Assembly (NCBI GenBank): GCA_030386875.1 | Contig: CM059566.1 | Location: 41,390,068 to 41,454,067 of the forward strand | Length of the DNA: 64,000 nt | Direction of reading: 5' to 3' | Source: Morinoia aosen | Taxonomy: Eukaryota; Arthropoda; Malacostraca; Amphipoda; Talitridae | Shown here: positions 4,232-64,000 of the stretch, piece after piece | How the letters are laid out: the number at the start of each line of letters is the position of its first letter | Numbering within the stretch: position 1 is the stretch's first letter | Notes under the pieces: generated by a model | Databases searched by the model: none | What the model was told of the DNA's origin: nothing | Seen by the model: only the letters and a program-made list of their open reading frames with translations | Position numbers and translations under genes: made by a program

Positions 4232-4575
4232 GCTGATTAGATAAGTTCATTTAAGCCTCCCTAACCGCAACAATGGCGTTCTGAAGAGAGAAAGGTAAAA
4301 GACACCATTTAGCACGTACTTAAGGAGACGCGGAATCTGTGCACAGAGTGCATAGGGACACTAAGTTGCGAAAGGAGTTCTTGAAGAAGATGAAATTTGA
4401 AGAAGAAAGTAGTAGGTGCTAAAAATAGGCCAGCAGTGAACCGAAAAAAAAGTTCGTAAAAAAATAAAAACCTATTTTATCTGAACAAAAAGAAGGCTTC
4501 CTAACCATTTGTTCGAGACCTCACATTTTTCACTCCCGGGAGCGCTAATTCCCATAGACACAATACAATACATAG
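4232..4575 (-). mobile_element. K-family retroposon, old copy, in KANSL1 intron A-B
   Basis: Diverged but nearly full-length. Plus-strand landmarks are TTTAAGCCTCCCTAACCGC at the left (the element's 3' side), CAGCAGTGAACCGAAAA in the middle and GGGAGCGCTAATTCCC at the right. The 5' palindromes are decayed. It lies 44 bp inside the intron from the exon B acceptor. Confidence 0.8.
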
Positions 4576-5277
4576 CTGAATCCTCCAGAAGAGCCCAACA
4601 AAATGAGCAAGACATGGCTTGCACACGCACACCAAGAACAAAAACTACCCATCTTTTTCGATCTTATCAATCCATTCAATATTAAGAATAGTTTTCAAAA
4701 TAGGAACACACCGAATGAAATCACGCTCAGACATCCTTTCAATACGTACTACAGATATACTAAAATTTAACAGAAGCCTTGTGAAAAAATATGGAAGAAT
4801 TTCAATTGTGACATCCTGACGAGCGTTTTAGTTAGTTTTCCCCACATAAACTGTGCCCAAACGACTCCTGAACCCTTGCTGTCAACATTTCAACACTAAA
4901 CCAACAAACACTATCCTACCACAAACGAAAAATTAGATTTATCTTGAGTATACCATAACATAGGTAACAAAATGAATCTAGTGAAGCCACTAATTTACGT
5001 GAATAGGGCGAAAACCGGATTAGACAGAGAAGCTCTAGAATCTTCCATATTATTACTCAAAGATATTTTTGTCCCTACTAACTAATTTAATGGAGTTGTT
5101 GGCAGAAACCAATAAGGAAATTGCTGATACAAGAACATATCGTTTCTTGCGCTCAGGTGCAATAGAAACGACACAGGACGCCTCGATTCAGCAATGAAGG
5201 CATTGTGCAAAACATCCGGCAATATTTCTTGGCAACAGATATTTCTATTTCTAAAGATATTAATTAGAAAATTTATA

Positions 5278-5451
5278 CAGGGTGTCCCCAAAAAATATAT
5301 CTACTGACCAATGTATGAGTGAGTATAGGATACAGGAACCATACACCAAAATTAAACTGTTGTACGGTTTCGATATTTGATGCCGGAATCATAGATATTT
5401 TACAATGTAAAAATAAATCGGTCAATGGAGACATTTTTTGTGGACACCCGG
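5278..5451. mobile_element. Short MITE with imperfect inverted ends, flanked by TA
   Basis: The left end CAGGGTGTCCCCAAAAAA (5278-5295) is matched by TTTTTTGTGGACACCCGG (5434-5451) as an inverted repeat with few mismatches. TA precedes the left end at 5276-5277. The 174-bp body has no coding capacity. The termini resemble those of Tc1/mariner-class MITEs common in insects; the TA target is visible only on the left, so the superfamily is an inference. Confidence 0.6.
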
Positions 5452-5588
5452 CGCATCCTAATCTGAGAAAGAATGCCTCACGTTAAATTTTTTGTGGACA
5501 TCCTGTACATCTTAAGCTGTAAGAAAACATCGCATTGAATTTTTCAAGAACACCCTGTACATCTTAATCGGAAAGAAAGGCTCACGTG
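5434..5588. repeat. Three tandem units (about 53 bp) derived from the MITE right end, reaching the exon A donor
   Basis: Units begin near 5434, 5488 and 5541. Each has a TTTTTTGTGGACA-like end followed by CATCTTAA and a GAAAGAA-CTCACGT-like tail. The third unit ends in GGCTCACGTG, which on the minus strand is the 3' end of exon A and its GTGAGC donor. The first unit has the near-identical GCCTCACGTT. Confidence 0.6.
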
Positions 5589-6832
5589 TATCGCTGGAGA
5601 GTAACGGATGATGGCCAAGATCAGTGGAAGCGAGACGCTCGTGGAGCAGCTGGGTGCTGCTCAAGCCGACTCTGCTGCTGGAAGCCACTCGAGGGTACCA
5701 CGCGTTCTTGCACAGAAGCGTAGTGCCGTGCGCAACGGGATCATTGGAGCTGGTATCAACGCTACGGAGAGTTCCGCTGCGTTGCTGAGTCGAGACATTA
5801 GTGCCACGAAGGGCAGTGCCGCTGTTGTATGAACCAACACCATCGCTGGGTATTCTCGACATCGGAGGGCACGAATTAGCGGAGGGTAATAACACGCTTG
5901 AGGTATATTGACCACTACAGCGAGGTGGAGTGAACTGAAGAGGTGACAGAGAAGGACGGAGAAGATGTGTAGGAGAAGGCGAGAGGGAAGCGCTGGATAG
6001 AGCTTTCTTCAAGGGCGTTTGCATGCCATTCACTTGGCTCATATTATTAGAGCTATTATTATTATTATTATTATTACTACTACTACTACTACTATTATTA
6101 TTATTATTTCTGGTATTAATACAACTATTGCTATACAAAGTGCCAGAGCTCGGCACGTTGCACCGAGCTTTCAAAGTGGTGCACATAACACACTGCATGG
6201 GCTCGACGCATCGACACGAGACGCTAAGCGTAGGTTGAAACACGAGGTTATTCGCAACGTCGCTCTGCATCGGCTCATCTTTGGCGCGACCTCGGCCGTG
6301 TTCGAAGATGTTCCCAACTCTGATCCAGCGTCTCTTGCGGTGCCAGCGAAGGCCTTTCGTACGAGCGCACCCGTCATCATTGGTACCTTCAAAAGATGTC
6401 GCCGCGCAGTTGGATGTTCGTGACCCAGATGTTTCATTTGGAAGGACGCGCTGTGCTGCAGGCTCTTTGGTGTGCAAACGAGGCCCTCCTGCATCGCTGT
6501 TAGCATCACTGACACCTTTCGAGCAAGTCTCGTTCTTGCTTGTAGTGTTCAGACGAGGTACGTTGCTATCGTTGGAATTATTGCTGCCTTTTCGAGGCGC
6601 TTCGGAGTTGTTGACCAAGCCCGGCTTGGTCGAATCACTGGCTCCATTTTTGACGTGGGTGGTGGCGGTGGCACCGTTAATGCTGACCCCGCTATTGATG
6701 CCGTTGATGTTGGTCCGAGTGACGCACGTGTACGCTGGCCGGTTCGCCAAAACCGGGTTGGTTGCGGTGCGGGAAGCCGAAGAGTGGTCCGACAACGAGC
6801 TCGTATTGTAGCGGTTCAGGTGGCGTAAACGT
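5586..6832 (-). CDS. KANSL1: KANSL1 homologue, exon A (large central exon)
   Basis: A 1,247-nt minus-strand exon encoding 415 full codons. The acceptor is GTATTTTTGCAG (CAG at 6835-6833) and the donor is GTGAGC at 5585-5580. The first base A completes the codon opened by exon F (CT plus A, Leu). It starts RLRHLNRYNTSSLSDHSS, followed by Asn/Ser/Thr-rich sequence. A basic patch (KGLRWHRKRRWIRVGN) precedes a Cys cluster CRCVEPMQCVMC, matching in order the KKRRLVRPN and CDVNPSCALC segments I recall from human KANSL1. Next come an Asn/Ser homopolymer, a Ser/Pro-rich region, and LLHERLASTDLGHHPLL at the end, matching the KANSL1 LLERLSQLDSCVHPVL motif. The protein scaffolds the nuclear NSL complex. 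Identification rests on remembered motifs, not a search. Confidence 0.9.
6052..6111 (-). repeat. Coding trinucleotide microsatellite (poly-Asn/Ser) in KANSL1 exon A
   Basis: On the plus strand (ATT)n then (ACT)n then (ATT)n. On the coding strand it is AAT and AGT codons giving Asn-5, Ser-6, Asn-7 and further S/N residues. It keeps the frame open and is in the middle of a low-complexity linker, so length variation is likely tolerated. Confidence 0.85.
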
Positions 6833-7269
6833 CTGCAAAAATACCGAAATTTAATTCACTCATCAGCTTTACTGTGAATGTGTTGGTATGATACAACGAA
6901 GTGATATGATTTATATAGCGTTCTACTTATACGACGAAACTATGTTCAAATGAGGCAGTACAGGACGCTCCAACTGTAACCGAACGCCTATATGCCGCAC
7001 TTCGGGATTCACATCAACATCAAATGCTAAACCACGCTAACGACTTCGAAACAAAAAACTACAGCTCATCGAAGAGGCCAGATTTCGACGCCGAGAGAAA
7101 GCTTGTCTTTTAATTATGTTCTTATATCATTATTTATTTCAACTTCTTAGGAATACAAATTAAAATGTCATCAACAACTTGGTAATAATCAATGTTTCAA
7201 TTGTTAATAGGACTTGAACGCATTATAATCAAACGACGATGCTTGCTCAAGACGTTCGAAAATAACTCT

Positions 7270-7753: not shown

Positions 7754-7770
7754 TATTATTATTATTATTA

Positions 7771-7828
<58 letters not shown>

Positions 7829-8173
7829 AGAAAGTTTTAGCCTCCTTTAACCACGACAAAGATGTTCCAAGAGAGGAAAGAGGAAGGCACCATTTAGTAT
7901 GGAGTTGAGGGAACGTGGAATCTATGCACAAGGTGCACAGAAACAGTAAGATAGGAAAGAAGTTCATGAAACAAGAAAAAAGTTGAAGAAGAAAATAGTA
8001 GGTGCTGAAAAACAGAACAGCAGTGAACCGAAAAAAGATGGCCCGTAACAAAACAAAAACCTATTTTATTTCAACAAAAAGGAAGCCTACCTAACCTTTA
8101 GCTCAGGCCCTCCACATGGTTCCCCTGGGAGCGCTAATTCCCATAGATACAATAGTTGTATCCCCCTGAGGGG
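7754..8173 (-). mobile_element. K-family retroposon, subtype b with (TAA)n tail, intact target duplication
   Basis: One of the clearest copies. The 15-bp target duplication ATATTTTGTAAATAT is present at 7739-7753 and 8174-8188. Inside it, from left to right, lie a (TTA)n run of about 25 units (7754-7825), ATATAAGAAAGTTTTAGCC, the body, GGGAGCGCTAATTCCC, and the 5' end CCCCTGAGGGG. The microsatellite lies inside the duplication and is therefore the element's own tail. A sense-strand short frame reads through the body into poly-Asn from the tail. Confidence 0.92.
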
Positions 8174-14865: not shown

Positions 14866-15847
14866 CTGCTCATAAGAAAACATGGACTGAGAACACAATG
14901 TTGAGTGAAAACACGAATTAAGTAGCCGAGAATTGAAACATGCGGAAAATGTTAAAGTGAATGATTTTGATCGATAAAAATGTACCACATATTTATGAAA
15001 TAAGTTGAAATATCCTGAACGTGTTTCGCTTAAAATGTTCATCAAAGAATACAACACAAGAAAATTAATTGCGCTTTTCTAACGTTAATACAATCGGGAA
15101 TTTCTGAGCACGATTATTCTGAAAAAAAAAAAATCGATCAACTTTCAAGCATCACTTCGCACCATTTGTGATAAATCGAAGCTGTCAAATTGGCATGGCT
15201 CCGATCTGATTCATATCACACAAAATGAGGCTGACTAGGCTTAGAAAATTTCAAGGACATGTGCAGTGATCTCATTCTGTAGAATGTGTGCATGAACATT
15301 TCAATTTCGTATAGATATTTCATACCCAACAGAAAATAGGTGTAGCCAAGTTTGTTTTTCACAGCAGCATTTCGCTACAATAGATTAGGATAATTTAACT
15401 TCAGAAATATGCATTTTTTTGCAAAAATATTAGTACGTAGTGTAGGATCTCAATTTCCTCACTAGAGCAATTGTCCTGAAATTGGAATGCGAATACTCCA
15501 CTCCTTTCGGTATTCTTCCGATGGAACCCGAGGTCGTCATAAATGATCAGTTTATCATTAAAGATCACCACATTTCAGCAATTCAACGGGAAAATGCTCA
15601 AAGTGAAATCTTCCTCGGCAGACATCGATCTTTCAAGTGTTTTACATGCAGCGACACCCTCCTTCGCCCACCAAATCAATTCGTACACAACAAATACTTC
15701 CAACAACTGAATATTTATGCTTTAGATATCTTCATACACTACTTACGTAATTTATGATCAAACAGGATGTCATAAAAGTTTAGATTATTTTGAGCTGATC
15801 ATTTACCTCCATTCGATTCAGTTCAAACTGGCTCTAGATTAGATAAA

Positions 15848-16255
15848 TTATTTCAAGCCTCGTTAACGACAACAAAGGTATCCTAATAGAAAACATTATT
15901 TAGTATGATATTAAGGGACCGGGAAATTTATGAACGATCCCTGTGCATAGAAACGGCAAGTTAGGGAGTATACGAAACAAGCTAAAACTTGGAGGAGAAA
16001 GTAGCATGTGCTAAAATCTGAAAGCAGTGAACCGAAAAGATATATTCTTCAACAGAATAAAAAGCCTACTGTACTTTAACAAAAGGCATGTAGGCGCTGA
16101 AAAATAGGACGGCAGTGAACCGAAAAAAGCTGCTTAACAAAACGAATGTTTTATTTCAATATAAAGAAGGTCTACCTAACTTCCAGCTCGGCACTTCACA
16201 TTTTCCACTGGGAGTGGTAATTCGTAGATACAATAGTTGTATCCTCCTTAGAGAG
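15848..16255 (-). mobile_element. K-family retroposon, old copy with internal partial duplication
   Basis: Collinear with the family from TTTCAAGCCTCGTTAACG to ACAATAGTTGTATCC. A segment of about 80 bp around CAGTGAACCGAAAA is present twice (about 16005-16085 and 16086-16170), so the copy is longer than usual. Confidence 0.75.
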
Positions 16256-17478: not shown

Positions 17479-17842
17479 AGATAAGATTATAAGTTAGTTT
17501 AAGCCTCCCTAACCGCTACAAAAAAGAGCGTATCGAAGAGAGGGAGGGGAAGGCACCATTTAGTATAGAGATAAGAGAATGAGGAATCTATGTAGAAGGG
17601 GCATAGAAACAGCAAGTTGAGAAAGAAGTTGACGAAATAAGATAAAAGTTGAAGAAGGAAGTCAGAAGTGCTGAAAAACAGGACAGTAGTGAACCGAAAA
17701 ACGGTGGTCTTTAACATAACAAAAAAAAAAAACATTTTATTTCAACAAAAAGAAGGCCTACCTAACTGTCAGCTCGGGCCCTCACATTTTCACCTGGGAG
17801 CGCAAATTCCCATAGATACGATAGTTGTATCTCCCTGAGGGG
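17479..17842 (-). mobile_element. K-family retroposon, subtype a, full length
   Basis: Flanked by TAATAGTAGTACATA (17464-17478) and TAATAGTTGTACATA (17843-17857), a 15-bp target duplication with one mismatch. It starts with the AGATTATAAGTTAG tail junction and ends at CCCTGAGGGG. An open sense frame of 78 codons (17735-17499) lies inside. Confidence 0.92.
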
Positions 17843-18047
17843 TAATAGTTGTACATACTTATACGGTTGGGTGTATATATATATTGTATATTTCAACATA
17901 TGAAGTGTGTTATTATTATTATTTTCGGGTTTTCCCGCAGTTTTCGATACTCTGACGAAATCACAGCGTAATTTGGTAGCATTGTTAATGAAGTGTGTTA
18001 AATGCAACCCAAAGTGTACATATATCCTACTTGAGAAGCCCTGGGTT

Positions 18048-18190
18048 AGATGTTAGTTCAAGCCCCCCCCCCCTCCCCCCAACTTCAACAAAGGCGTTTC
18101 AAGAGAGGAAGGAGGAAGGCACCATTTAGTGTAGACTCGAAGGAACGCGGAGTTCGTGTACAAGGTGCAAAGAAACTATCAAGTACTAAA
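18048..18190 (-). mobile_element. K-family retroposon, 5'-truncated fragment with poly-C tract
   Basis: Only the 3' part of the element is present. An unusual run of C (about 18063-18082) replaces the CCTCCCTAACC segment. The family match ends near CAAAGAAACTATCAAG. Confidence 0.7.
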
Positions 18191-18965: not shown

Positions 18966-19296
18966 GATTAGATTAGATGCATCATTATCCGCAACAAAGG
19001 CGATAGGAAGAGAGGAAGGCACTATTTAGTGTGGAGATAAGGGAATACGGAATCTATGCAGCAGGGGCATAGAAACAGTAAGTTGAGGAAGAAGTTTACG
19101 AAGCAAATTAAAAATTGAAGAAGAAACTTGTGGATGCTGAAAACAGGACGGAAGTGAACAAAAAAACGATGGTCCTTAAAACAAAAACACTTATTTCAAC
19201 AAAATGAAGGCCTACCTATCACTCAGCACAGGATCACACATTTTTTTCGTATGAGCGCTAATTCCCATAAATACAATAGTTGTATCTCCCAGGGGG
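18966..19296 (-). mobile_element. K-family retroposon with (GATTA)n tail
   Basis: Begins AGATTAGATTAGATG and ends ACAATAGTTGTATCTCCC. Target duplication is only weakly visible (TTCATAT on both sides), so the copy is moderately old. Confidence 0.8.
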
Positions 19297-21084: not shown

Positions 21085-21178
21085 TAGCATATAGTTTAAG
21101 ACTTTATCTCCTTAGCAAGGATGTTTTCACACCGGGATGAATGAGAAAATTTAGTATGGAGTGAGAAAAACGTGGAAT
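21085..21178 (-). mobile_element. Left part of an old K-family copy split by a younger insertion
   Basis: Starts near TAGTTTAAGACTTTATC and is interrupted at GAGAAAAACGTGGAAT. It resumes at 21550 with CTATGCACAAGGTG, exactly collinear with the family. Confidence 0.75.
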
Positions 21179-21533
21179 TATTATTATATAAGAAAGTTTT
21201 AGCCTCCCTTAACCACGACAAAGATGTACCAAGAGAGGAAAGAGGAAGGTACCATTTAGTATGGAGTTGAGGGAACGCGGAATCTATGCACAAAGTGCAC
21301 AGAAACAGTGAGCTAGGAAGGAAGTTCATGAAACAAGAAAAAAGTTGAAGAAGAAAGTAGTAGGTGCTGAAAAACAGGACAGCAGTGAACCGAAAAAAGA
21401 TGGTCCGTAACAAAACAAAAACCTATTTTATTACAACAAAAAGGAAGCCTACCTAACCTTTAGCTCAGGCCCTCACATAGTCCCCCTGGGAGCGCCAATT
21501 CCCATAGATACAATAGTTGTATCCCCCTGAGGG
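21179..21533 (-). mobile_element. K-family retroposon, subtype b, nested in an older K copy
   Basis: A perfect 16-bp target duplication GAGAAAAACGTGGAAT is at 21163-21178 and 21534-21549, and it is sequence of the host copy itself. Between the duplications lie a short (TTA)n tail, TATAAGAAAGTTTTAGCC, the body, and the complete right end GTATCCCCCTGAGGGG. An open sense frame of 105 codons (21413-21099) crosses the body. Confidence 0.93.
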
Positions 21534-21549
21534 GAGAAAAACGTGGAAT

Positions 21550-21770
21550 CTATGCACAAGGTGTCCACTCTAGATATCCTGCAGAAACAGTAAGTTAGAA
21601 AAAAGTAAGTGAGGAAAAAATAGGAGCAAAATACAACGAAGATTTAGCGAAGAAAGCATGAAAACTGTAAGAAGCAAAGAAGGCAAGAACGATGAAGTCC
21701 CTGAGGCCTATCTATAGCTGAGCTGAACTAACAATTTCTCTCCAGGGAGCGCGATCAACAACATTAACGT
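21550..21770 (-). mobile_element. Right part of the split old K-family copy
   Basis: Continues the host element after the nested insertion (CTATGCACAAGGTG, then CAGAAACAGTAAGTTAG). It is diverged and loses recognisable similarity after GAGCTGAACTAACAATTTC and a GGGAGCGCGATC remnant near 21746. Confidence 0.65.
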
Positions 21771-23499: not shown

Positions 23500-23894
23500 C
23501 ATGATTAGATTGAAAAATGTTAAAGCCCCACTAACCACAACTTCAATGTTCCCAAGACAGGAAAGAGGAAGACACCATTTAATACGGCCTTAAGGAAACT
23601 GAGAATCCATCCACAAAATGTGCTCCCACACAAGGTCTTAACGCATAGAAATAGCAAGTAAGGTATTAGGTTAATGGAAATAGCAAGTAAGGTATTAGGT
23701 TAATGAAACAGAATAAAAGTTGATAAATAGCAGGTGCTGAAAAAATTGCAGTTAATCGAAAAAAAAAGATGATCTGTACCAGAACAAAAAAGTATACTTA
23801 AAAGGCCTACCTAACCTTCAGCTCAAGGTCTCGCAGTTTCCCCCTTGAAGCTTCGATTCCCATAAATACAATAGAAGTGCCTACAAGAGGGGAC
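23500..23894 (-). mobile_element. K-family retroposon, subtype c (longer form), old
   Basis: This form has about 20 extra bases containing GTGCTCCCACACAAGG before CGCATAGAAA, also seen at 39830, 48832, 62729 and 63768. A 28-bp segment AAATAGCAAGTAAGG... is tandemly duplicated (about 23650-23705). Confidence 0.75.
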
Positions 23895-24216: not shown

Positions 24217-24500
24217 TAGAATGTAGATTAAATGTTAGTACAACCCTCCCTAACCGCAACACAGGCGTTCCGAGGAGAGAAAGGAAAGCACTATTTACTA
24301 TGGAGATGAGGAAACGCGGAATCTATGCACGAAGTGCATACAAACAGTAAGTTGAGAAAGAAGTTCATGAAACAAGATAAAAGTTGCAGAAAAAAGTAGG
24401 CGCTGAAAAACGAGACGGCAGTGAACCGAAAAACATGGTCGGTAATATAAAAACTTTTTTATTCTATTTAAAAAAAATACCTAATCTTTAGCTCGAGACC
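24217..24500 (-). mobile_element. K-family retroposon, truncated at a Tc1-type relic
   Basis: Collinear from TGTAGATTAAATGTTAG to TTTAGCTCGAGACC. The remaining 5' part is missing where Tc1-like sequence begins. Confidence 0.75.
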
Positions 24501-24519
24501 TTTAGACATGAGAGATTCT

Positions 24520-24839: not shown

Positions 24840-25187
24840 GATGAACAAGTAATCATCCTAAACTTAATTTTTCTGCAGGAATTACAGTAACTCGTAATAT
24901 CCTGATGTCATATATTGATAATAAACTCTAAAAAAATTAAAGTATACGAATAAAGTGTTTTTTTGGACGATTTTTGCTGCCCTGCACAAAATTTTCGATT
25001 AGTTTAAATTGTGTATAATGCAAATAAATGTTTTCTTCAAGTGAGTAGTTGAAATTTTTCGCCTGATAATTACGCCCTTAATTAGCAATAAATAAAACAA
25101 TTGAAGTAAAATAAAATGTCCGCTGGTTTCACTTACATATTTATATTTAAGCAATTTGTTGAACTCGTATAAAAAGATATTAAAGAA

Positions 25188-25350
25188 TAAATTCTGAAAA
25201 ACAGAATAAAATTGAGTCGATGAAGAGGCTCAGAACATAACAAAACAAAGGAAAACTATTCTGTTTCGACAAAAAGAAGGCCTGCATAAACCCTAGCTCG
25301 GGATAAGGCACATTTCTCCTGATAGCTTTGATTCCCATCCTTCTAAAGGG
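25188..25350 (-). mobile_element. K-family fragment (5' half), possibly the displaced part of the copy at 24217
   Basis: Runs from TTCTGAAAAACAGAATAAAA through ACAAAAAGAAGGCCTG to GATTCCCATCCTTC. It lacks the 3' half. Together with 24217-24500 it could be one element split by the Tc1-type insertion and the DNA around it, but the halves do not abut precisely. Confidence 0.65.
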
Positions 25351-25429: not shown

Positions 25430-26170
25430 TCACAAACAAAGCAATGGAAATAAGAAAGGGTATGCTCGTGAACTTCACTTGAAAACACAGAATTTATCGG
25501 AGCTGCAAATAGGAAAATCATGGGCTTTTTTGACGGCCGGCAACAACATGAAAGTAACGAGCGGTAGTCCGTTCTGCTATTCACATGCCTCCCACCTAAA
25601 CTGCAGCTCATCAAACGAGTCGCAGTCTTGAACTTCATTCGAAAGCACTTCGAGAATTAATCATAGCTATAAATAGGAAAAATCATGGCCATTTATGCCG
25701 GAAGTAGCATGAAAATAACGAGCGATAGTCGGTTCTGCTGTTCACAAGATTAGGATTATAAGTTAGTTTAAGCCTCCCTAACCGCTACAAAAAAGAGCGT
25801 ATCGAAGGGAGAAAGGAGGGAGGCACCATTTAGTATGGAGATAAGAGAATGAGGAATTTATGCAGAAGGGGCATAGAAACAGCAAGTTGAGAAAGAAATT
25901 GATGAAATAAGATAAAAGTTGAAGAAGAAAGTCAAAGGTGCTGAAAAACAGGACAGCAGCAGTGAACCGAAAAAGGTGGTCTTTAACGTAACATCAACAT
26001 TTTATTTCAACAAAAAAGAAGGCCTACCTAACACCTTAGCTCAGGGCCCACACACGTTTTCCCCCTAGGAGCGCTAATTCCCATAGATACAATAATTGTA
26101 TCCCCCTGAGGGGTTAGCTGTTCACAAGCCCCCAGCCAAACTGCAGAACAGAAAACGAGTCGCGGACAAA
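25430..26170 (+). repeat. Tandem duplication (about 170 bp unit) interrupted by a K-family insertion
   Basis: Landmarks occur twice: CAAATAGGAAAATCATGG / TAAATAGGAAAAATCATGG, GAGCGGTAGTCCGTTCTGCT / GAGCGATAGTCGGTTCTGCT, and AAACTGCAG followed by AACGAGTCGC. The second unit is split by the K copy at 25749-26113. Confidence 0.75.
25749..26113 (-). mobile_element. K-family retroposon, subtype a, full length
   Basis: A perfect 12-bp target duplication GCTGTTCACAAG is at 25737-25748 and 26117-26128, with three extra bases TTA at the 5' (right) junction. It has the ATTAGGATTATAAGTTAG tail junction at the left and GTATCCCCCTGAGGGG at the right. Such non-templated 5'-junction bases are typical of target-primed reverse transcription. 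Confidence 0.93.
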
Positions 26171-29713: not shown

Positions 29714-30047
29714 ATTAGAATAGTCGTTAGTTTTAGCCTTCCTACCCAGCAACAAATGCGATCCAAAGAGAGGAAGGAGGAAGGCACCATTTAGTATGGA
29801 GTTAAGAAAACGCGGAATCTACGCAGAAAGGGCATAGAAACAGTAAGTTGTGAAAGAAGATTATGAAACAAGATCAAAGTTTGAGAAGAAAGTAGTAGGA
29901 GCTTAAGAACAAACAGAACAGCAGTGAACCGAAAAAAGGTGGTTCTTGACATAACAAAAACATTTTATTTCAACAAAAAGAAGGCCTACCTAACTATCAG
30001 CTCGGGCCCTCACATTGTCCCCCTGGGAGGGCTAATTCCCATAGATA
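29714..30047 (-). mobile_element. K-family retroposon, subtype with CGTTAGTTTTAGCC 3' end, 5'-truncated
   Basis: Distinguished by TTTTAGCCTTCCTACCCAGC and AACAAATGCGATCC, a variant found elsewhere only in the chimera at 51903. It stops at AATTCCCATAGATA, missing the last roughly 30 bases of the 5' end. No clear target duplication. Confidence 0.8.
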
Positions 30048-30469
30048 AAAAAAGAGATATTCGAACTAGTCAACCTGGGCCCATTTGGCGACAGCAGACA
30101 GTTCATGCATAACAGAGTTGCCGAGTTTTATCGAAGTGCAACGACCTACATTGCAGCATGCACTCTAATTATCTCATGCTGGCTACCATGGAACCGAGGC
30201 ATCGCAGTAATACTTGATACTCCAATTCTTCGACCCATAAACGTCCATATACTTATCTGATAACGGTCCAAGTCAGTGACCTCCATTATGTAGCAGAATA
30301 TAATCGCACACTTTTACGATAAAAAGTCAAATAAAGTCATACAATTTGCGACAAAATGCCGTTCTAATTCTAAACGGTACACTGCAGAAAGTATTTATCG
30401 TCACCTTGCACGATTATCAATGGTTACACAACATCTAAACTGGGGGAAGTGATACACTTCAGTGACATA

Positions 30470-34930: not shown

Positions 34931-34970
<40 letters not shown>

Positions 34971-35591: not shown

Positions 35592-35948
35592 GTAGATTAT
35601 AAGTTAGTTTAAGCCTCCCTAACCGCTGCAAAAATAGAGCGTATCGAAGAGAGGAAGGAGGAAGGTATCATTTAGTATGGAGATAAGAAAATGAGGAATC
35701 TATGCAGAAAGGGCATAGAAACAGTAAGATGGGAAAGAAGTTCATGAAATAAGATAGAAGTTGAAGAAGAAAGTCAGAGGTGCTGAAAAACAGGACAGTA
35801 GTGAACCGAAAAAGGTGGTCCTTAACATAACAAAAAACATTTTATTTCAACAAAAAGAAGGCCTACCTAACTCTCAGCTCGGGCCATCACATTTTTCCCC
35901 TGGGAGCGCTAATTACCATAGATACAATAGTTGTATCACCCTGAGGGG
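35592..35948 (-). mobile_element. K-family retroposon, subtype a, full length
   Basis: From GTAGATTATAAGTTAG to GTATCACCCTGAGGGG. No clear target duplication; the right flank serves as the left target duplication of the next copy. Confidence 0.88.
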
Positions 35949-35963
35949 CTGCACGAAATCAAA

Positions 35964-36268
35964 TCGAGTAGATTAATATATCTATCATATGAAAGTTTTA
36001 GGCTCGCTTTATCGCAAAAAAAGATATTCAAAGAGAGGAAGGATGAAGGCACCATTTAGTCAAGAGTTAAAGGGAACGTGGAATCTACGCACAAGGTGCA
36101 TAAAAACGGTAAGCTAAGAAAAAAGTTCATGAAACAAGAAAAAGTTGAAGAAGAAAGTAGTAGGTGCTGAAAAACGGGACAGCAGTGAACCGAAAAAGAT
36201 GTCTGTAACAAAACAAAAACCTATTCTATTTCAACAAAAAAGAAAACCTACCTAACCTTTAGCTCGGG
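35964..36268 (-). mobile_element. K-family retroposon, 5'-truncated, inserted beside the previous copy
   Basis: Flanks GCTGCACGAAATCAAA (35948-35963) and GCTACAAGAAATCAAA (36269-36284) form a 16-bp target duplication with two mismatches. The element stops at TTTAGCTCGG, missing about 75 bases of its 5' end. Confidence 0.85.
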
Positions 36269-36897
36269 GCTACAAGAAATCAAACACGCGTCTGCATCGA
36301 GTAGAGTTCTCGCGAAGTGCTACTCTCGTATTATACGCTGGTGTAAAATTTTGGAGAAAAACAGAGACACCGAGTTGAAGCGTGAGATATGAGCATGGAA
36401 CGCGCGCCCATCATTAAGCACTGCAGACCGAGGGTCAACTAACTCAGCCAGTACCAGCGTTCCGGGCGGCTCGTTGAGAACACATGCACAAAAAGCAGTC
36501 TACTTATCAGCTCGACTACACGCCTTATGACTCGAAACGATAAGCCAAGAACCCGGCGTTACAGCTAATTACTAAGCGCTTTCGTTTAGCCGGAACGCCT
36601 TTAGCCTACCGGAACGGACAAAAATACAGATTTTTAAAACTATGTATGTAAAACGCGTACCTACTGTGCTTCAATGTTCGTTCAGTAATCAATCACTCTT
36701 AACTTGAAACTTATAAGAAACTTCAGGAAACAAGTGCAGGAATACTATGATATTGGGCTGATTTTACACCAATAAATATAATCTAACTCCTAAGAGTGGT
36801 CCAGAGTAGGTACAGCAATGGTGTAACAATTACAACATTGATCAAACAAACAGAAAGCGATGCGTTAGCAATATCGCAGGAGATACAGTTACAGCAA

Positions 36898-39829: not shown

Positions 39830-40112
39830 TAAATTAGTTTAAGCCTCCCTAACTGCAACGAAGGTGTTCCAAAAATAGAGGGCATCATTTTATACTGGCT
39901 TTAGGAAACGCAGAATCTGTGCACAAATGTGTTCCCACACAAGATCCCTTATGCTTAGAAACAGCAAGTTAGTTAAATAAAAAATTATTGAAACAAGATA
40001 ATAGTTGACAAAAGTAGTAGGTGATGATGTACAGGACATCGATGGACCTAAAGTAAAAATGGTGCGTAACCAAACGAAAACCTATTCCATATCAACCTAT
40101 TCCCATCGACGA
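39830..40112 (-). mobile_element. K-family retroposon, subtype c, 5'-truncated
   Basis: GTAAATTAGTTTAAGCCTCC at the left, the longer-form block GTGTTCCCACACAAGATCCC in the middle, and loss of similarity after ACCTATTCCATATCAACC. Confidence 0.75.
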
Positions 40113-41745: not shown

Positions 41746-42371
41746 CCGCGCAGAGAAATGATACATGATACAACGACAAAAACAAAGCCTGACTGGAAAA
41801 AATAGCGCAATGGTAAACAATAGCAGCATAAAATTGAGACCTGAATTATACTTCAAAATTAGTCCAGAAATATTCAAACAATATAATTTCCTGGTTCTGT
41901 GTCGCGACAACGGGCAAAAAATTTCTAAACTTAAAGGTCTCAAGTTCTCAACTTAGAAGTAAAAAATGCAAGGAAATGAATTAAAACTAGCTAAGTCTTC
42001 AGCAGAAGCAGTTTTATAAGCCTCACTTTGCAGTTCACATCTTTTGTGGCAGTGCTCAACTTCTGTACCAAACATACTACAGCTCCAGTGAGTTGATGAA
42101 ACAATCATTTCAAATTGAAAACTTACTACAACTAAGTTCAAAAACAATGTTAAATAATGACATTTATCAAAAATTTCACTTCTGGCTAATACGTTCCAGA
42201 TGTGAATAGACCGATAAAAATCAAATTTATTTAGAACGATCCCTTCGTGCTCTACTAAACTACCCTCAATCTGCGAAGCATCCAACCGAGGCAAGCCAGA
42301 GGATTTGACCGAATACGTCGATTTTCACTTAAAAATTAGGATAATTCAAATTAGTACAAATAAGCGTCTTT

Positions 42372-42660
42372 ATTCACAACAAAGGTGTGTTTCAAGAGAG
42401 GAAGGAGTACGGAAGAGAAGAATAAGAACGGAATCGACGAAGCGAGGAATTTATCCGCAAGATGTATCCCTCCATCCTATGTATAGAAACAGCATGGTTA
42501 ACATAAGCTTAGGAAACAAGATAAAAGAAAAGCAATAATTCCAGATAAAGTACAACGGTGAGCTGAAAGATATATGGTCCGTACCAAAACTAGAACAAAA
42601 AATCTATTCTATTTCAACTGAAGGAAAGTCTATCGAACTTTCAGTTTGGGATCTCACGTT
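42372..42660 (-). mobile_element. K-family retroposon, old, lacking both ends
   Basis: CACAACAAAGGTGTGTTTC, AAGAGAGGAAGGAGTACG and TTCTATTTCAACTGAAGG are collinear with the family. Confidence 0.65.
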
Positions 42661-43630: not shown

Positions 43631-43632
43631 TA

Positions 43633-47760: not shown

Positions 47761-48831
47761 AATTTACGGCTAGAACTCCGAGTTTATATGAGAAAACGAA
47801 ACAACGGATCATTAAGGTAAACTCATCTCCCTACAGACTGCAGGACGTTCAATGCATGCTGCTGAAGAGCACGCGAAGAGCAACAGAAATCGAAGCGACG
47901 AGTTCGGGGTAACAAAATTTTACAACGCCTCTAACGCAACAAAATTAAAAATAAGGGCCACCAAAGGGTAAGCAAAATTTTACTTTGGCCCTTGCACCTA
48001 GCATGGCTGATCAGGAAGAAACAACGTCAATTCAATTCATGTGTCATGAAAAAAAATTTGAGGTCAATTTGACGTGCATTCCTACTTACAATTCACTGAG
48101 AGAAGAACAGTAGCCAACTTATGACTGCACGGAGAATTAAACCACTCAAAAACAGAGAAATACAATCTCCGGTAGCTCACAGCCCTGAACCTTCTTCGCA
48201 CATCGAATGCAACAAAGGAGATAAAAAAAGTCGAATAAGAGACTGTCATGCTAAAACAAATAGAAGGTACGGAAATCGAACGCAGCCACTAGTACTTGTC
48301 AAGCTATAGAGAAGAGGCCAGTAGCGATAGAAGATTTTCTTGTGGGATCAAAAACCTAGCATCAGTACACATATCTACACGGGATTTTCTACATAAGCTC
48401 ACTGATGACAACTCACACGAACAAATTTTGCAGCAGTGTTTTGGAAGCTGAAATTTGTCCTCTGGCATACAGCTCCTACTTTACATTCTACTTTACACCC
48501 GCGACATGCACGTAACAGCTTAGTCTTCACACGGAATTCAGGGGAAAACAGTAAAAAAATTCTTGCGAGAACAGCTGACAGGTCGGACCAGAACACTACA
48601 CAAAAAATCGACTCATATAATCGGGGTTCTCAACACGCGCGTCTCCCTTCATTACCGAGACTGAATTGAGAACATCTACGTGCGATTTCTTAGGGGAAAG
48701 TCTTCGGAGCTTCAACACAATACAAAAGATACGTCATAACCTCGGCTGATCTACACAACGAACAGGAGTAATGCGCGCCAACTGCAACACAGAAAATTAG
48801 CTATGCCTTGCCTCATTCAATTTTAATGGCA

Positions 48832-49212
48832 GTATAAGTTAGTTCAAGCATCCCTGACCATACTAAAGGTGTTCTAAAAAAATAAATTATTATTAAGTAG
48901 GCAATTAAGAGAACAGGGAATCAAAGCACAAGGAGTGTCCCCACACCTTGCGCGTGGAAACGCAAGATTGAAAGAAATTTCACATAACATAATATATTGA
49001 AATGGAGAAAGTAAAGTCAGGTACAGAAAAAACAGCAGTGAACCGAAAAACATGATTCGGTTCACTACAGTGAACATGGATGGTTCGATACAGAAAGAAA
49101 ATCCATTCTATCTCAACAAAAGGAAAACCTACCTAACTTTCAACTCTGGACTCAACATTTTCTCTTTAGAAGAGTTAAAAGAGATACAGCAGTCGTATCC
49201 CTCTGAGATGGA
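48832..49212 (-). mobile_element. K-family retroposon, subtype c, old
   Basis: AGTATAAGTTAGTTCAAGC at the left, longer-form block GTGTCCCCACACCTTG, a duplicated CGGTTCACTACAGTGAAC hairpin-like insert near 49057, and TCGTATCCCTCTGAGATGG at the right. Confidence 0.75.
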
Positions 49213-51888: not shown

Positions 51889-51902
51889 ATTAACACGAGA
51901 TT

Positions 51903-52328
51903 AGATTAGCCGTTTGTTTTAGCCTCCCTACCCAGTAACAAATGCGATCCAAAGAGAAGAAAGAGAAGATTAAGATTATAAGTTAGTTTAAGCCTCCCTA
52001 ACCGCTGCAAAAATAGAGCGTATCGAAGAGAGGAAGGAGGAAGGCACCATTTAGTATGGAGATGAGAAAATGAGGAATCTATGCAGAAAGGGCATAGAAA
52101 CAGTAAGATGGGAAAGAAGTTCATGAAATAAGATAAAAGTTGAAGAAGAAAGTCAGAGATGCTGAAAAACAGGACAGTAATGAATCGAAAAAAGTTGGTC
52201 CTTAACATAACAAAAACATTTTATTTGAACAAAAAGGAAGGCCTACCTGACTCTTAGCTCGGGCCCTGACATTGTCCCCCTGGGAGCGCTAGTTCCCATG
52301 GATACAATAATTGTATCCCCCTGAGGGG
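51903..52328 (-). mobile_element. Chimeric K-family insertion: full subtype a joined to a 3' fragment of another subtype
   Basis: A single perfect 14-bp target duplication ATTAACACGAGATT (51889-51902 and 52329-52342) encloses two units. Next to the tail is about 62 bp of the 29714-type variant (GCCGTTTGTTTTAGCCTCC to AAAGAGAAGAAAGAGAAG, 51903-51964). Directly joined is a full-length subtype a copy with its own tail junction (ATTAAGATTATAAGTTAG, from 51965) to CCCCTGAGGGG. No remaining part of the first unit follows. Confidence 0.9.
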
Positions 52329-52751: not shown

Positions 52752-52935
52752 GATTAGAAAACGTAAGCTTCCCCTAAATGCAACAAAACATGTTTCCAAA
52801 AGAGGAAAGAGGACAGCACCATTTAGTGTGGAATTAAGATAAGGAGGAATCTATGCACAAATTGCATCTCCACACCCAGCACTGAGGAGAAACAGCATGG
52901 CTGAAGAAAATGAATCAAGTTAAAAGCTGAAAAAT
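52752..52935 (-). mobile_element. K-family retroposon, old fragment abutting a TTAA element
   Basis: CGTAAGCTTCCCCTAAATGC, GAGGAAAGAGGACAGCACC and CAAGTTAAAAGCTGAAAAA are collinear; the 5' half is absent where TTAA-type sequence begins. Confidence 0.65.
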
Positions 52936-53140
52936 TAGGTTCAATATTCAACTCAAATATAAAGTCAATTGTAACAAGAAATTTTGAAAATGGCAAACAT
53001 TACCTGGATCGTGCATTCATTTAACTGTGATTAAGCATTTATGAAAATTGAGTTGGTGACTACTGCTCGATCAGCAGCATTATGAAAATTCCCTCCGTGT
53101 ACCACCGGTGCTCATTTGGCGGTTAACTCGTTTATAAAGC
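52936..53140 (+). mobile_element. TTAA-type MITE, second form
   Basis: Carries TTCAATATTCAACTCAAAT, AAGCATTTATGAAAATTGAG, ATCAGCAGCATTATGAAAAT, CCGTGTACCACCGGTG and a right end GGCGGTTAACTCG. Confidence 0.6.
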
Positions 53141-56487: not shown

Positions 56488-56872
56488 TTTATGTTTAGTT
56501 TCAACATCCCTTACCGCAACAAAAATACTCAAAAGAGACGAAGGACGAAGGCACATGTATGGAATTGAGGGAACGCATACTCTACACATGTACAAGGTGA
56601 GTTCCCGAACACGATCTACTGTGTATTGGAAACGTCGACAAGAAAGGTTAGGAAACAAGGTAAAATAAAAGTTGAAAAAGTAAATCAGAGGTGCAGAAAA
56701 ACAGGACAGCAGTGAATCGAAAAAAGATGGTCCTTGACAAAACAAGAACATTTTATTTCAACAAAAAGAAGACTCGCCTAACTCAACTTGGGACCTCATA
56801 TTCTTCTCCCCTTCAGAGAGCTAATTTACATAAATACATAAATACTATAGTTGTATCTCCCTGAAGGGTTAA
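56488..56872 (-). mobile_element. K-family retroposon, nearly full length, diverged
   Basis: GTTTAGTTTCAACATCCC at the left, AAACAGGACAGCAGTGAAT in the middle, ATAGTTGTATCTCCCTGAAGG at the right. A duplicated ACATAAATACATAAATACTA is near the 5' end. Confidence 0.8.
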
Positions 56873-57659: not shown

Positions 57660-57789
57660 TTAGATTGAATAACTAGCTTCAGCCTGCTAATCGCAACCCG
57701 TTTCCAAGTGAGGAAAGAATATGGGACCAATTAGTATGAAAGAAAACGGGGAATAGAGGCGCAAGTGCTGAAAAACAAAGCAGCAGTCA
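57660..57789 (-). mobile_element. Left part of an old K copy split by a young one
   Basis: TTAGATTGAATAACTAGCTT to GTGCTGAAAAACAAAGCAGC. It continues at 58177. Confidence 0.75.
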
Positions 57790-58164
57790 GATTAGATTAT
57801 TATAGATTATAAGTTAGTTTAAACCTCCCTAACCGCTACAAAAAATAGAGCGTATCGAAGAGAGGAAGGAGGAAGGCACGATTTAGTATGGAGATAAGAA
57901 AATGAGGAATCTATGCTGAAGGGGCATAGAAACAGTAAGATGAGAAAGAAGTTCATGAAATAAGATAAAAGTTGAAGAATAAAGTGAGAGGTGCTGAAAA
58001 ACAGGACAGCAGTGAACCGAAAAAAGGTGGTCCAATTAACATAACAAAAAAAAACCTTTATTTCAACAAAAAGAAGGCCTACCTAACTCTCAGCTCGGGC
58101 CCTCACATTTTTCCCCTGGGAGCGCTAATTCTCATAGATACAATAGTTGTATCCCCCTGAGGGG
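57790..58164 (-). mobile_element. K-family retroposon, subtype a, nested in an older copy
   Basis: A perfect 12-bp target duplication AAGCAGCAGTCA is at 57778-57789 and 58165-58176. The tail is GATTAGATTATTATAGATTA and the 5' end CCCCTGAGGGG is complete. Confidence 0.93.
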
Positions 58165-58176
58165 AAGCAGCAGTCA

Positions 58177-58324
58177 ACCCAGGGAATTGGGTTCGTTACA
58201 AAACAAAAAAACTATTGAAACTAAAGGAAGGCCTACTTAACTACTTAATCCGCAGCTTGGGACGTCACATATGTCCCTGTGAAGGCTAGTTCCTTTAGAA
58301 ACAATTTTTGTTTCTCTCAGAGGG
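58177..58324 (-). mobile_element. Right part of the split old K copy
   Basis: ACCCAGGGAATTGGGTTCG, GAAGGCCTACTTAACTACTT and ACAATTTTTGTTTCTCTCAG resume the host copy; its 5' hairpin arms have co-varied to AACAATTTTTGTT-like. Confidence 0.7.
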
Positions 58325-59407: not shown

Positions 59408-59771
59408 GAAAGATTAAGATTATGAGTAAGTTTAAGCCTCCCTAACCGCTACAAAAAAGAGCGTATCGAAGAGAGGAAGGAGAAAAGCACCATTTAGTAT
59501 GGAGATAAGAGAATGAGGAATCTATGCAGAAAGGGCATAGAAACAGTAAGTTGAGAAAGAAGTTCATGAAATAAGATAAAAGTTGAAGAAGAAAGTCAGA
59601 GGTGCTGAAAAACAGGATAGCAGTGAACCGAAAAAAGGTGGTCCTTAACATAACAAAAACCATTTTATTTCAACTAAAAGAAGGCCTACCTATCTCTCAG
59701 CTTGGGCCCTCGCAGTTTACCCCTGGGAGCGCTAATTCCCATAGATAGAATAATTGTATCCCCCTGAGGGG
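59408..59771 (-). mobile_element. K-family retroposon, subtype a, full length
   Basis: Target duplication TATAAACCAG (59398-59407 and 59772-59781), extending to 13 of 14 bases. GATTAAGATTATGAGTAAG tail junction and complete GTATCCCCCTGAGGGG end. An open sense frame of 73 codons (59663-59442) lies inside. Confidence 0.93.
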
Positions 59772-60388: not shown

Positions 60389-60677
60389 ATTAGATTAGGT
60401 TATAAGTTAGTTTAAGCCTCCCTAACCGCTGCAAAAACAGCGTATCGAAGAGAGGAAGGAGGAAGGCACCATTTAGTATGGAGATAAGAAAATGAGGAAC
60501 CTATGCAGAAAAAGCATAGAAACAGTAAGATGGGAAAGAAGTTCATGAAATAAGATAAAAATTGAAGAAGAAAGTCAGAGGTGCTGAAAAACAGGACAGT
60601 AGTGAACCGAAAAAAAGTGGTCCTTAACATAACAAAAAGCATTTTATTCCAACAAAAAGAAGGCCTACCTAACTCTC
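60389..60677 (-). mobile_element. K-family retroposon, subtype a, clearly 5'-truncated
   Basis: A perfect 14-bp target duplication TCTTGGCCAGTAAA (60375-60388 and 60678-60691) encloses a copy that stops at GGCCTACCTAACTC. The terminal 80 or so bases, present in full copies, are absent. This proves that the variable end is the right (5') end and the tailed end is the left. Confidence 0.94.
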
Positions 60678-60838
60678 TCTTGGCCAGTAAATACTAAATG
60701 TAAAACTTAGAAGGAAAAAATTAACATGGGCTCGTAACGCTAGCAGCCTCGATTCACACGTAGCACGAAACCCTTTGATAAAGTCTACCGTACTTCGCTC
60801 ATGCGTCCACACATCACGTTGAATCAATTTGAATAGCT

Positions 60839-61740: not shown

Positions 61741-61867
61741 CATTCAATAAATGACTAATTATATCACCTCCTCGAAGTATTCTTCTTTCCACCGCTCACA
61801 TTAGATAACAAGCGATTGCTGTTCAATAAAAATCAGGTGATAGGAGCCAATATCTTTACGAGATAGG

Positions 61868-62140
61868 ATGAGCTGATTAAAGCCTCCTTAACCATACCGA
61901 TGTTCCCAAGAAAGGAAAGAGGAAGGCATTCTTTAGCGCGGAATTAAGAGAACGAGTAATATATGCACAAGATGAGTTTACACTTCCTGATCCTAACTAG
62001 GAACAGCAAGATTGAAATTAATTTATGAAATAAAATTAAAACTGGAGAAGTAAATAATAGATGTTAAAATAATGACAGCAATGAAAAAAGATTGTTCAGC
62101 CATTGTCACAAAAAAGCGTATTACAATATAACAATGTTTG
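61868..62140 (-). mobile_element. K-family retroposon, old, 5'-truncated
   Basis: GAGCTGATTAAAGCCTCC at the left, GGAAAGAGGAAGGCATTC, and loss after GATTGTTCAGCCATTGTC. Confidence 0.7.
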
Positions 62141-62196
62141 TTACAATGGATGGCTGACTGACTGATTGCAGTTAGATTCTTTGCATGGACAACTTC

Positions 62197-62475
62197 AGAT
62201 TATAGTCGGTTCAAACCACTTCAATGACACCAAAGACATTCCAAAGAGAGACACCATTCAAACCATTTAATATATGGAGTTATGAGATAAGGAGAACCTA
62301 CGCACTATGTACGTCCCCACACACAACGTATAGACACAGCAAGACTGGAAGAAAGTGATGAAATTACATCACATTTCAAGAAAATAGATGCTGAGAAACT
62401 ATCAGTACGTTGAAAAGGACGTAGTACAACACAACAGAAAGGAAATATTTCATAACAAGGATTATTCTACCTTCA
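62197..62475 (-). mobile_element. K-family retroposon, very old, subtype c-like
   Basis: ATTATAGTCGGTTCAAACC, GAGACACCATTCAAACC and TACGTCCCCACACACAACG mark it. The 5' end is unrecognisable. Confidence 0.6.
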
Positions 62476-62728
62476 ACTCATTACCGGTTACGAGTTTTTG
62501 CCTACTTTGTTGCGCTATGAGGTATTTTTCATTTAAAATTAATAAAACACTATAGCCCCTATAAATATTAGAGAGGCCGAAATTATCCATTTCGGTCAGA
62601 AATTATTTCAGAAATGCCGATCAGTAGCCAAGTCCACAGAACTTCCGCAGCCAGTTGTACCGCTACGATGAGGTAAATTACTTGCAAAATCATTCCGCAG
62701 CTCAAAAATTAACGTCGACTGCAGGGCT

Positions 62729-63063
62729 GATTGATTGATTACAAATTAGTTGTAGCCTTCCTTTACCATAACAAGGATGTTCAAAGAGAGGTAGGATGAA
62801 GGCACCATTTAGTGTGGAGTTAAGGGAACGTGGAACCTATGCACAAAGGGCGTTCCTGCAATGATCCCGTGCGCATAGAAACAGTAAGATAAGAAGGAAG
62901 GTTGTGAAACACGATAAAAGTTAAAGAAAAAAGTCATATATGCTGAAAACAGAACAGCAGTGAACCGAAAAAAAAGATAGTCCTTAACAAAATTAAAAAA
63001 CATTATTTCAACAAAAAGAAGGCCTCGCAACTCTCAGCTCTGGACCTCACACTTTTCACCTAC
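62729..63063 (-). mobile_element. K-family retroposon, subtype c, (GATT)n tail, 5'-truncated
   Basis: A perfect 14-bp target duplication TCGACTGCAGGGCT (62715-62728 and 63064-63077). The tail is GATTGATTGATT. It contains the longer-form block GCGTTCCTGCAATGATCCC and stops at CACTTTTCACC. Confidence 0.92.
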
Positions 63064-63767
63064 TCGACTGCAGGGCTCTGTGGCGAAGCTCCTGGAGACC
63101 TCGGCCAGATGCGCGCCGTCAGCACAACGTGAGCAAATACCGCAAATCCAATCGTCGCATATTTTTCATGATCTAATAGCGTTTCAGATTATTTATCCAT
63201 GATTTTTTTCTTTTAAAGCAAGCTGGAAATTGTTTCGATGCGATCAATCAATGGTGTTTGCTGCCTTTTGTTTTTATTTAGTCGCCGGGAACAAGCGTTG
63301 ATGTTCAACAAAAAGAACAGTTATTCCTAATCAGAGAACAAAAATCAAGACATGACATTTTTGTTCTCACATGACACGAGCCCACTTGTTTATAATCATA
63401 TTAGATACTAAGTGCAAAAGATATCCTGAGCTCAACTCACCACATGCATTTTGTACAAAGTTTGACAAGCCACTCAGGGAAACGCGTACACAAAATGATC
63501 AGAAAACTCAGCCGAATAAAAATAATTCAGATTATTGAAAAAGCTGACAGTAAAATTTCTAGGCACGCGGCTTTTTGCATGTCTAGAAATATACGAAGAA
63601 AACATTATAGGGCAGTATGAAATTTACAGACACGAGAAGATTTCGTTCATTACACGGAAGTGCACTAAATTCTACAAACGAAGAATCAATAAGTCGCGAG
63701 GGCGACATGCGGAAATACTTCGAAATAGACTGATAAGATGGCAAAAGGTATAAAGGCGCAACAGTGA

Positions 63768-64000
63768 GGCCTACTCTTGGGCTGACTGATTGATGGTAAG
63801 TTAATTTCAGTGTCCCTTACGACAACAAAGGAGGATGAAGACGCCATTTAGTATGGAGTTTGAGAGAACACGGAATCTACGCACGAGGTGTGTTCCCGCA
63901 CAGGATCCCCAGCGCAAAGAAACAGCAAGGTTAAGAAACAAGATAAAATTTGAAAAAAAGGCGTTGAAAACCAGGACAGCAGTAAACCAAAGAAAGACAG
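63768..64000 (-). mobile_element. K-family retroposon, subtype c, cut by the right edge
   Basis: Starts with a GATTGATGG tail and AAGTTAATTTCAGTGTCCC. It contains the longer-form block GTGTTCCCGCACAGGATCCC and runs to CAGTAAACCAAAGAAAG at the edge. Confidence 0.8.

Follow-up and report, generated by a model that had tools for sequence, protein, structure and literature searches.

K copies in the window

The window analysed here (the whole stretch of 64,000 nt) carries on its minus strand a host gene, a putative KANSL1 homologue, and with it numerous copies of a repeat family, K. Two minus-strand ORFs were read as exons of this gene, one at 3755..4207 and a large one of 447 aa at 5512..6855, neither with a Pfam match. 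The gene name, already proposed in a preliminary description of the sequence, drew no support from any tool, a Pfam search with four ORFs returning 0 matches.

Both strands of the window were searched with nhmmer (--max) and a profile of 34 K copies, counting hits at E < 0.001. We detected 36 K fragments, all on the minus strand, and two weaker minus-strand matches (E 0.038 and 6.7), while the plus strand, where reverse copies were sought, gave none up to E = 10. In a control search, the window reversed without complementing reached at best 2.4 bits with the K profile, and the top plus-strand match of an earlier, 8-copy profile scored 4.2 bits. Merging neighbouring fragments resulted in 29 K loci, 0 plus to 29 minus (two-sided p = 3.7e-9), bearing out the uniform orientation, with the minus strand as sense strand, first noticed for 32 loci counted by eye. 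The minus-strand block extends from -2.7 kb to +64.1 kb in window coordinates.

Inspection for repeats at the nhmmer hits showed that 9 of the 37 K fragments examined are flanked by a direct repeat of 12-16 nt, a target duplication. Eight of the repeats abut the K ends or are offset from them by no more than a few bases. They flank full-length copies at 7819..8173 (15 nt; (AAT)n tail), 17484..17842 (15 nt, 1 mismatch), 25754..26113 (12 nt) and 59417..59771 (14 nt, 1 mismatch), as well as 5’-truncated copies at 60395..60681 and 62736..63062 (14 nt each). They also flank copies lodged between other K pieces of the same orientation: the copy at 21181-21534 (16 nt) separates two pieces of another K within 21091..21606, including the weak match with E 0.038 (21091-21178), and the copy at 57803-58164 (12 nt), within 57671..58324, sits between two pieces resembling one older K. 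The ninth repeat, of 14 nt, encloses a full-length copy together with an adjoining K tail piece (51901..52328). Target duplications and tails were also seen by eye at K loci L002-L008.

The other minus-strand nhmmer matches comprise copies at 4238..4591 (model positions 3-353), 18979..19296 (2-336), 23510..23892, 29715..30050 (22-357), 34962..35309 (with an (AAT)n tail, on inspection of its flank) and 56495..56868, a diverged copy at 48831..49207, a 5’-truncated one at 24224..24501 (62-356), and a copy at 63791..64000 that continues to 64,106 in the flank. Two fragments adjoin each other at 15842..16252; a copy and a fragment lie head to tail at 32340..32862, as do two copies at 35593..36273. 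Single fragments occur at 18043..18184 (221-355), 25179..25339 (29-191), 33170..33356 (184-357), 39830..40097, 42361..42660, 52756..52941, 61866..62097 and 62197..62479.

Structure and class of K

K is a retroposon of ~357 bp with a fixed 5’ end, at which many copies start, and a tail of (AAT)n or (AATCT)n. With up to 3 mismatches allowed, a 32-mer from K matches the genome 57,988 times, nearly balanced between the strands. The element thus has the short, non-coding body, high copy number, defined 5’ end, target duplications and simple-repeat tail of a SINE, and its variable-length target duplications, 3’ tail and 5’ truncation are those of retroposons of the non-LTR type. We conclude that K is a short non-autonomous retroposon made by target-primed reverse transcription.

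An RNA polymerase III head (tRNA, 5S or 7SL) was not found: ARAGORN reported 0 tRNA genes in the window, and Rfam gave 0 matches at the gathering score there and only sub-threshold ones for K copy L007. Because this head was not found, and a diverged one may be present, we call K SINE-like rather than a SINE. K was also considered, and rejected, as a known or structured RNA, as Rfam gave no match at the gathering score and its fold was no better than those of shuffled sequences (z -0.45). Two short pieces, at -33882 and -66812, match just the last ~45 nt of K, but no LINE ending in this way was found. A LINE near -38 kb, considered as a partner, seems to carry an (AAT)n-like end of its own, so no partner is named.

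Orientation in gene blocks and across the genome

In the 264 kb around the window, K orientation falls into blocks that follow the genes and flips with gene strand. Sense to antisense counts were 11:1 in INTS15 (plus strand), 32:0 in the window gene (minus strand) and 4:0 in a YL1_C gene (plus strand), INTS15 and the YL1_C gene being recognised by Pfam and the direction of transcription being inferred from exons and A/T skew. The INTS15 count omits the weak tail-only pieces (-66812, minus, E 0.0011; -33882, plus, E 0.00091), and its one antisense copy lies at -22785. Between convergent genes K switches strand within about 11 kb, and 66 of 67 K matches agree with the local A/T strand skew of K-masked sequence, computed in overlapping windows that are not independent. 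A transcription unit behind the bias had been expected to reach at least 63.8 kb; in keeping with this, minus-strand K copies continue as far as 64.1 kb, and a positive A/T skew persists up to 68 kb.

Three plus-strand K loci at 72-77 kb would be antisense to the window gene if that gene has an exon in a minus-strand ORF at 80-82 kb. The A/T skew also flips at 72-77 kb, and a plus-strand zinc-finger ORF lies at 69.2 kb. When every ambiguous locus is counted as well, 56 of 61 are sense, so that K is 92-98% sense in the genes examined, the range being set by the treatment of ambiguous loci. Equal orientation inside other long introns, which would have spoken against a link to the gene, was not seen in the other genes examined; the bias is not special to the window gene.

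Elsewhere, on contig C1 from another chromosome, adjacent pairs less than 25 kb apart among the 148 K copies in the matches listed agree in orientation 59:5, and this agreement decays to near parity by 200-400 kb. Of six regions around kinase exons, 2 lack K, and in the other 4 every one of the 8 K fragments is sense. Two plus-strand kinase exons have 13 K copies no farther than 100 kb away among the matches listed, 13 of 13 being plus. One minus K lies between minus-strand RRM exons, with a plus-strand RRM exon 41 kb away; C1 gave no AAA matches. A point against the rule is that the A/T skew is opposite in the K flanks of L006. K was denser around kinase exons (8 fragments in 30 kb) than in random pieces (1 in 40 kb; p = 0.006, 70 kb in total). 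The window itself has 13 matches of the K 32-mer as compared with 29 per Mb, a figure biased because the reader had picked the window for its K.

Other repeats served as controls. In the blocks of INTS15 and the window gene, repeats other than K were few and mixed, pairs of same and opposite orientation numbering 3:6 in the former and 4:1 in the latter. Neighbours of the control repeat F3 on C1 agree and disagree 4:10, and of 9 F3 copies lying less than 25 kb from a listed K, 8 share its orientation, so that another family may also be biased towards gene sense. A MITE-like repeat (121 + 100 copies) and the LINE of L008 (22 + 33 copies) were too sparse to use.

Three very young K copies have an identical 120-mer in common. 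For two of them all K neighbours are on the same strand (4/4), and the third is, by eye, sense within a LINE; all three look sense, already following the rule. Many other copies are old, identity to the closest relative falling to about 70%, and most are old enough for past selection.

Origin of the bias and comparison with known systems

Transcription-coupled, strand-specific insertion is the best reading of these data, and we hold it with moderate confidence. K would insert in transcribed chromatin, the first nick falling almost only on the template strand; K RNA would then prime at that nick, and the cDNA would join the template strand. The machinery, for which a LINE acting in trans is the candidate, would read the direction of active RNA polymerase II, from either the opened template or contact with the elongating complex. 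Whether such co-transcriptional insertion nicks the template of genes transcribed in the germline, so that nearly every K is born sense and K forms a fossil record of germline transcription, we judge evenly balanced. We know of no precedent for a mechanism favouring the template strand, because transcription-coupled repair drives human L1 the opposite way. The L1 bias is directed against sense copies and can arise at insertion through this repair (PMC5717806).

The preliminary description had named three causes: selection within one long transcription unit, insertion tied to replication or transcription, and biased removal of opposite copies. The tie to a transcription unit is supported. Selection, the main rival, is possible but less favoured, because K is denser near kinase exons, very young copies obey the rule, and the K sense strand carries acceptor-like sites and AATAAA. 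It would have K insert blind to orientation, antisense copies then being purged from transcribed genes, for instance because their purine-rich strand acts as a splice enhancer or because they form double-stranded RNA; we consider this unlikely, yet well worth weighing. In one copy, a home-made scan found four GAR-type enhancer-like motifs in the purine-rich antisense K and none in sense K; many copies are old; and an antisense copy would presumably pair with the sense copies accumulated in the same pre-mRNA. However, the bias is near-complete even deep in long introns, and K is not depleted near the kinase exons. In one young copy, acceptor-like sites, in mid-element, and AATAAA occur on the sense strand alone, and therefore ordinary selection should oppose sense copies. 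The authors of the mouse study ascribe orientation biases to selection, but the biases published there are milder and antisense (PMC3446317).

That replication-fork direction sets K orientation and happens to coincide with gene direction is improbable: the blocks are tens of kb long and insertion direction is linked to replication in other elements, but the 68-80 kb flip and the ~11-kb switch track strand composition and ORFs more closely than a fork model. More doubtful still is an effect of composition, in which T-rich sense introns and a T-rich nick site offer more targets in one orientation. In the window gene, and for the most part in the INTS15 block, the sense strand is rich in T, 15 insertion sites placed by eye show a weak T-rich preference, and plain T6 runs are in 1.9-3.2-fold excess in the sense direction; sites fitting the 15-insertion motif are, however, only 1.2-1.6-fold commoner, too small an asymmetry for 66 of 67, which brings this reading close to refutation. 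We give even less credence to sense K being retained as an aid to splicing or elongation through long introns; its acceptor-like motif would suit such a role, but copies decay to the low identities given above. That a few copies were multiplied locally, by duplication or gene conversion, is scarcely credible, despite the head-to-tail pairs and a nearby duplication with 35-kb spacing at 112-164 kb, as the target duplications are independent, nearest relatives lie in the copy’s own gene block in 8 of 21 cases versus 7.6 expected from the share of copies, and the rule holds on other chromosomes. Many copies are thus separate insertions, as first proposed; a single duplicated block is refuted for the bulk of them, and local hopping within a gene was rejected on the same kinship.

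If transcription-coupled insertion is correct, K marks the strand transcribed in the germline over long evolution, including unannotated or nested units, and its retroposition machinery works in association with RNA polymerase II, which might be put to use for directing DNA insertion. The gene orientation bias of mobile elements is usually modest and antisense, and is debated as selection versus repair. A family of about 58,000 recognisable, near-completely sense copies could settle the question of selection versus insertion, and young K copies in a population would reveal directly whether the bias arises at insertion.

K resembles SINEs in its short, non-coding body, fixed 5’ end with some 5’ truncation, simple tail, target duplications and many copies, and differs from them in the RNA polymerase III head that was not found and, in the genes examined, in its near-complete gene-sense orientation. 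Searches of an open-access library showed, among the titles and abstracts listed, no recognised report of a retroposon so oriented. Introners (PMC9860276) also have many copies within genes, but create introns in exons, whereas K occurs many times per stretch inside long introns, with no exons recognised between copies and acceptor-like motifs in mid-element. Mouse intronic transposable-element variants are likewise biased but 26-45% sense (PMC3446317), every class being antisense-biased and SINEs, whose variants are enriched in introns, reaching 43-45%, as compared with 92-98% for K. The antisense excess of the L1 type was not seen for K, with sense to antisense counts of 32:0, 11:1, 4:0 and 8:0. 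According to PMC5717806, the gene-orientation bias of L1 can arise at insertion, as proposed here for K, but the direction in K is the opposite one; this sense bias, opposite to that reported for mammalian mobile elements, suggests insertion tied to transcription.

K elements in the window

An eight-copy profile of K, and a second one made from 34 hits, were searched against both strands of the window without filters. The 34-hit profile found 36 minus-strand hits at E < 0.001 and two weaker minus hits, with no plus-strand hit up to E = 10 anywhere in the window, and the reversed window gave noise only. Merging yielded 29 loci (plus:minus 0:29), bearing out the one-way orientation reported in the preliminary description; K makes up 15.5% of the window.

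The element is about 357 bp long, with a fixed 5' end and a tail of (AAT)n or (AATCT)n. Direct repeats of 12-16 nt, the target duplications also claimed from first inspection, were indeed found at 9 of the 37 fragments examined (two of these nine being 5'-truncated copies), and target duplications were seen by eye at all seven genome-wide copies read with their flanks (L002-L008), one of which, L005, is inserted inside another K in the same orientation. One pair of copies, located on different chromosomes, has identical sequence over 360 bp within unrelated flanks, indicating that K moved recently. Neither a tRNA nor an Rfam signature was found in K, Rfam matches being sub-threshold only. From the fixed 5' end, tail, direct repeats and recent movement, together with the lack of such a signature, we class K as a SINE-like retroposon that is copied through target-primed reverse transcription. 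At 51901-52328 one target-duplication pair encloses a K copy together with a further K tail fragment, as if a single insertion event had carried K plus part of a second K. The window also holds a recent-looking mariner-type DNA transposon at 43630-44597, whose 32-bp terminal inverted repeats are perfect and whose transposase frame (Pfam Transposase_1 and DDE_3) runs on the minus strand, and minisatellite arrays at 53348-53707, 54993-55422, 50245-50538 and 36916-37178, with periods of 47, 116, 28 and 43 bases, respectively.

Orientation across neighbouring gene blocks

To judge from sequence features, K very probably lies sense to transcription well beyond the window gene. We surveyed a 264-kb region around the window, counting a duplicated segment once (flank coordinates are relative to the window). 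The leftmost K block, from -72 to -13 kb, is plus at 11 loci and minus at 1; two weak tail-only hits, one per strand and straddling E 0.001, are left out of this count. A minus block (32:0) extends from -2.7 to +64.1 kb, followed by three plus loci at 72-77 kb (3:0), a single minus copy at 84 kb and a plus block (4:0) at 125-136 kb. An INTS15 exon (Pfam), on the plus strand, marks the left end of the -72 to -13 kb block, and a plus exon with a YL1_C domain lies within the 125-136 kb block. The window gene, four ORFs of which had no Pfam match, we take to be KANSL1, the name it had been given previously.

The A/T skew of K-masked flanks agrees with the K strand for 66 of 67 hits (it was taken in overlapping intervals, with both weak hits outside the cut-off applied there); in this genome such skew can serve as a separate indicator of transcription strand. 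Across the K-masked window the plus strand is A-rich (A/T skew 0.12); outside, the skew mostly flips with gene direction, with exceptions over satellites and LINEs. Two exceptions stand out among the K loci. One is a minus copy at -22785, within the INTS15 block; the other is the group of plus loci at 72-77 kb, which falls inside the window gene if a minus ORF at 80-82 kb is, as a likeness suggests, one of that gene's exons. At this plus block the A/T skew flips too and a plus zinc-finger ORF occurs at 69.2 kb, so that a putative nested unit or inversion is likely. A tandem duplication at +112 to +164 kb (L023-L028; 35-kb spacing, 98-99% identical) carries a large open frame and frames that we take to be LINE.

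K and a control repeat on other chromosomes

In the genome containing the window (1.99 Gb, 29 contigs), a 32-mer from the most widely shared stretch of K, allowing at most 3 mismatches, has 28,640 forward and 29,348 reverse matches, a nearly even split (49.4:50.6, p = 0.003); read backwards, the pattern has 0 matches in the genome. The mean is 29 matches per Mb, and the window, which was picked for K, has 13, about seven times as many.

Six partial-domain kinase exons without stops were chosen from 135 kinase matches, in table order and before viewing K. A duplicated inverted pair was passed over, and the 5 kb around each chosen exon was read. K occurred in four of the six regions, all 8 fragments being sense to the exon, and none was present in the other two. 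K is thus sense in 55 of 56 cases with exon-known strand (32:0, 11:1, 4:0, 8:0), and in 56 of 61 when every doubtful locus is counted. The sample on contig C1 of genome G000 comprised 148 K copies, drawn from the first 100 entries in the lists of exact 32-mer and 42-mer matches and all lying below 16.87 Mb. Among these, neighbours less than 25 kb apart were same:opposite 59:5 (p = 4.5e-13), while all pairs gave 77:12 at 25-50 kb, 165:85 at 100-200 kb, 196:153 at 200-400 kb, 461:439 at 0.4-1 Mb and 1688:1979 at 1-4 Mb; the listed copies found up to 100 kb from two plus-strand kinase exons were plus in all 13 cases, one of these two genes also belonging to the six-exon sample. RRM exons on the minus strand flank a minus K, with a plus RRM exon 41 kb away, and further K beside L002-L008 had the same orientation in 9 of 9 fragments at four of the seven loci, other K being absent beside the remaining three. 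On contig C27 of G000, many long conserved domains without stops cluster at about 55-71 Mb, with 10 of 20 AAA matches on that contig at 55.8-71.3 Mb and several kinase, RRM and ion-channel matches; the region may be rich in genes, or of foreign origin, from the genome of an endosymbiont or parasite.

The control repeat F3 (about 245 bp), which is unrelated to K, has 14,513 genome-wide matches to its 29-mer, 7,252 forward and 7,261 reverse, with copies at flank positions -63156, -62835, -30706 and -28460 and in loci L029 and L030. Among the matches listed on C1, F3 neighbours less than 25 kb apart were same:opposite 4:10 (Fisher p = 1.8e-6 against K), and its strands in the INTS15 block were 2:2, so that neither the assembly nor repeats in general account for K co-orientation. 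F3 copies up to 25 kb from a listed K share its orientation in 8 of 9 cases (a duplicated pair seems to supply two of the nine), and gene-internal F3 may have an orientation bias.

Insertion or selection

The sequence evidence inclines us slightly towards an origin of the bias at insertion as the best explanation, through a putative mechanism coupled to transcription that would act on the template strand first. Next comes strong selective removal of antisense copies, which seems unlikely. A home-made scan of one young K did place four enhancer-like motifs on the antisense strand; however, two acceptor-like sites, a donor-like site and AATAAA were confined to the sense strand, so that common splicing and polyadenylation costs should act against sense copies. 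Moreover, orientation-blind insertion followed by selection only predicts at least as much intergenic as intronic K, whereas small density samples, less biased than the window count, show the opposite: four 10-kb pieces at positions set in advance (40 kb) held one 73-bp fragment, and the six 5-kb kinase-exon regions (30 kb) held 8 (p = 0.006).

Three copies with an identical 120-mer already obey the orientation rule, which also argues against selection: one has 3 of 3 same-strand K neighbours, another has 1 of 1 and fitting skew, and the third, judged by eye, lies within a LINE's second frame in the sense direction. That arrangement, again by eye, is seen for the K at L008:1502-1858, which is identical to the L007 copy and has a 14-nt target duplication; a 32-mer of the LINE at L008 has 55 matches genome-wide. 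In L006, another young copy, the flanks show the opposite skew, which does not readily fit the rule. The sense:antisense ratio is only 1.2-1.6 for the weak K target motif, drawn from 15 sites located by eye, and 1.9-3.2 for plain T6 runs.

In one mouse study, intronic elements are sense in 32.5-32.8% of cases for ERV, 35.5-41.6% for LINE, 43.1-45.1% for SINE and 25.9-30.9% for IAP, biases that its authors put down to selection (PMC3446317); these are antisense and milder, in contrast to the near-complete sense orientation of K. For human L1, a bias at insertion through transcription-coupled repair on the template strand is described in PMC5717806, and it runs opposite to the direction of K.
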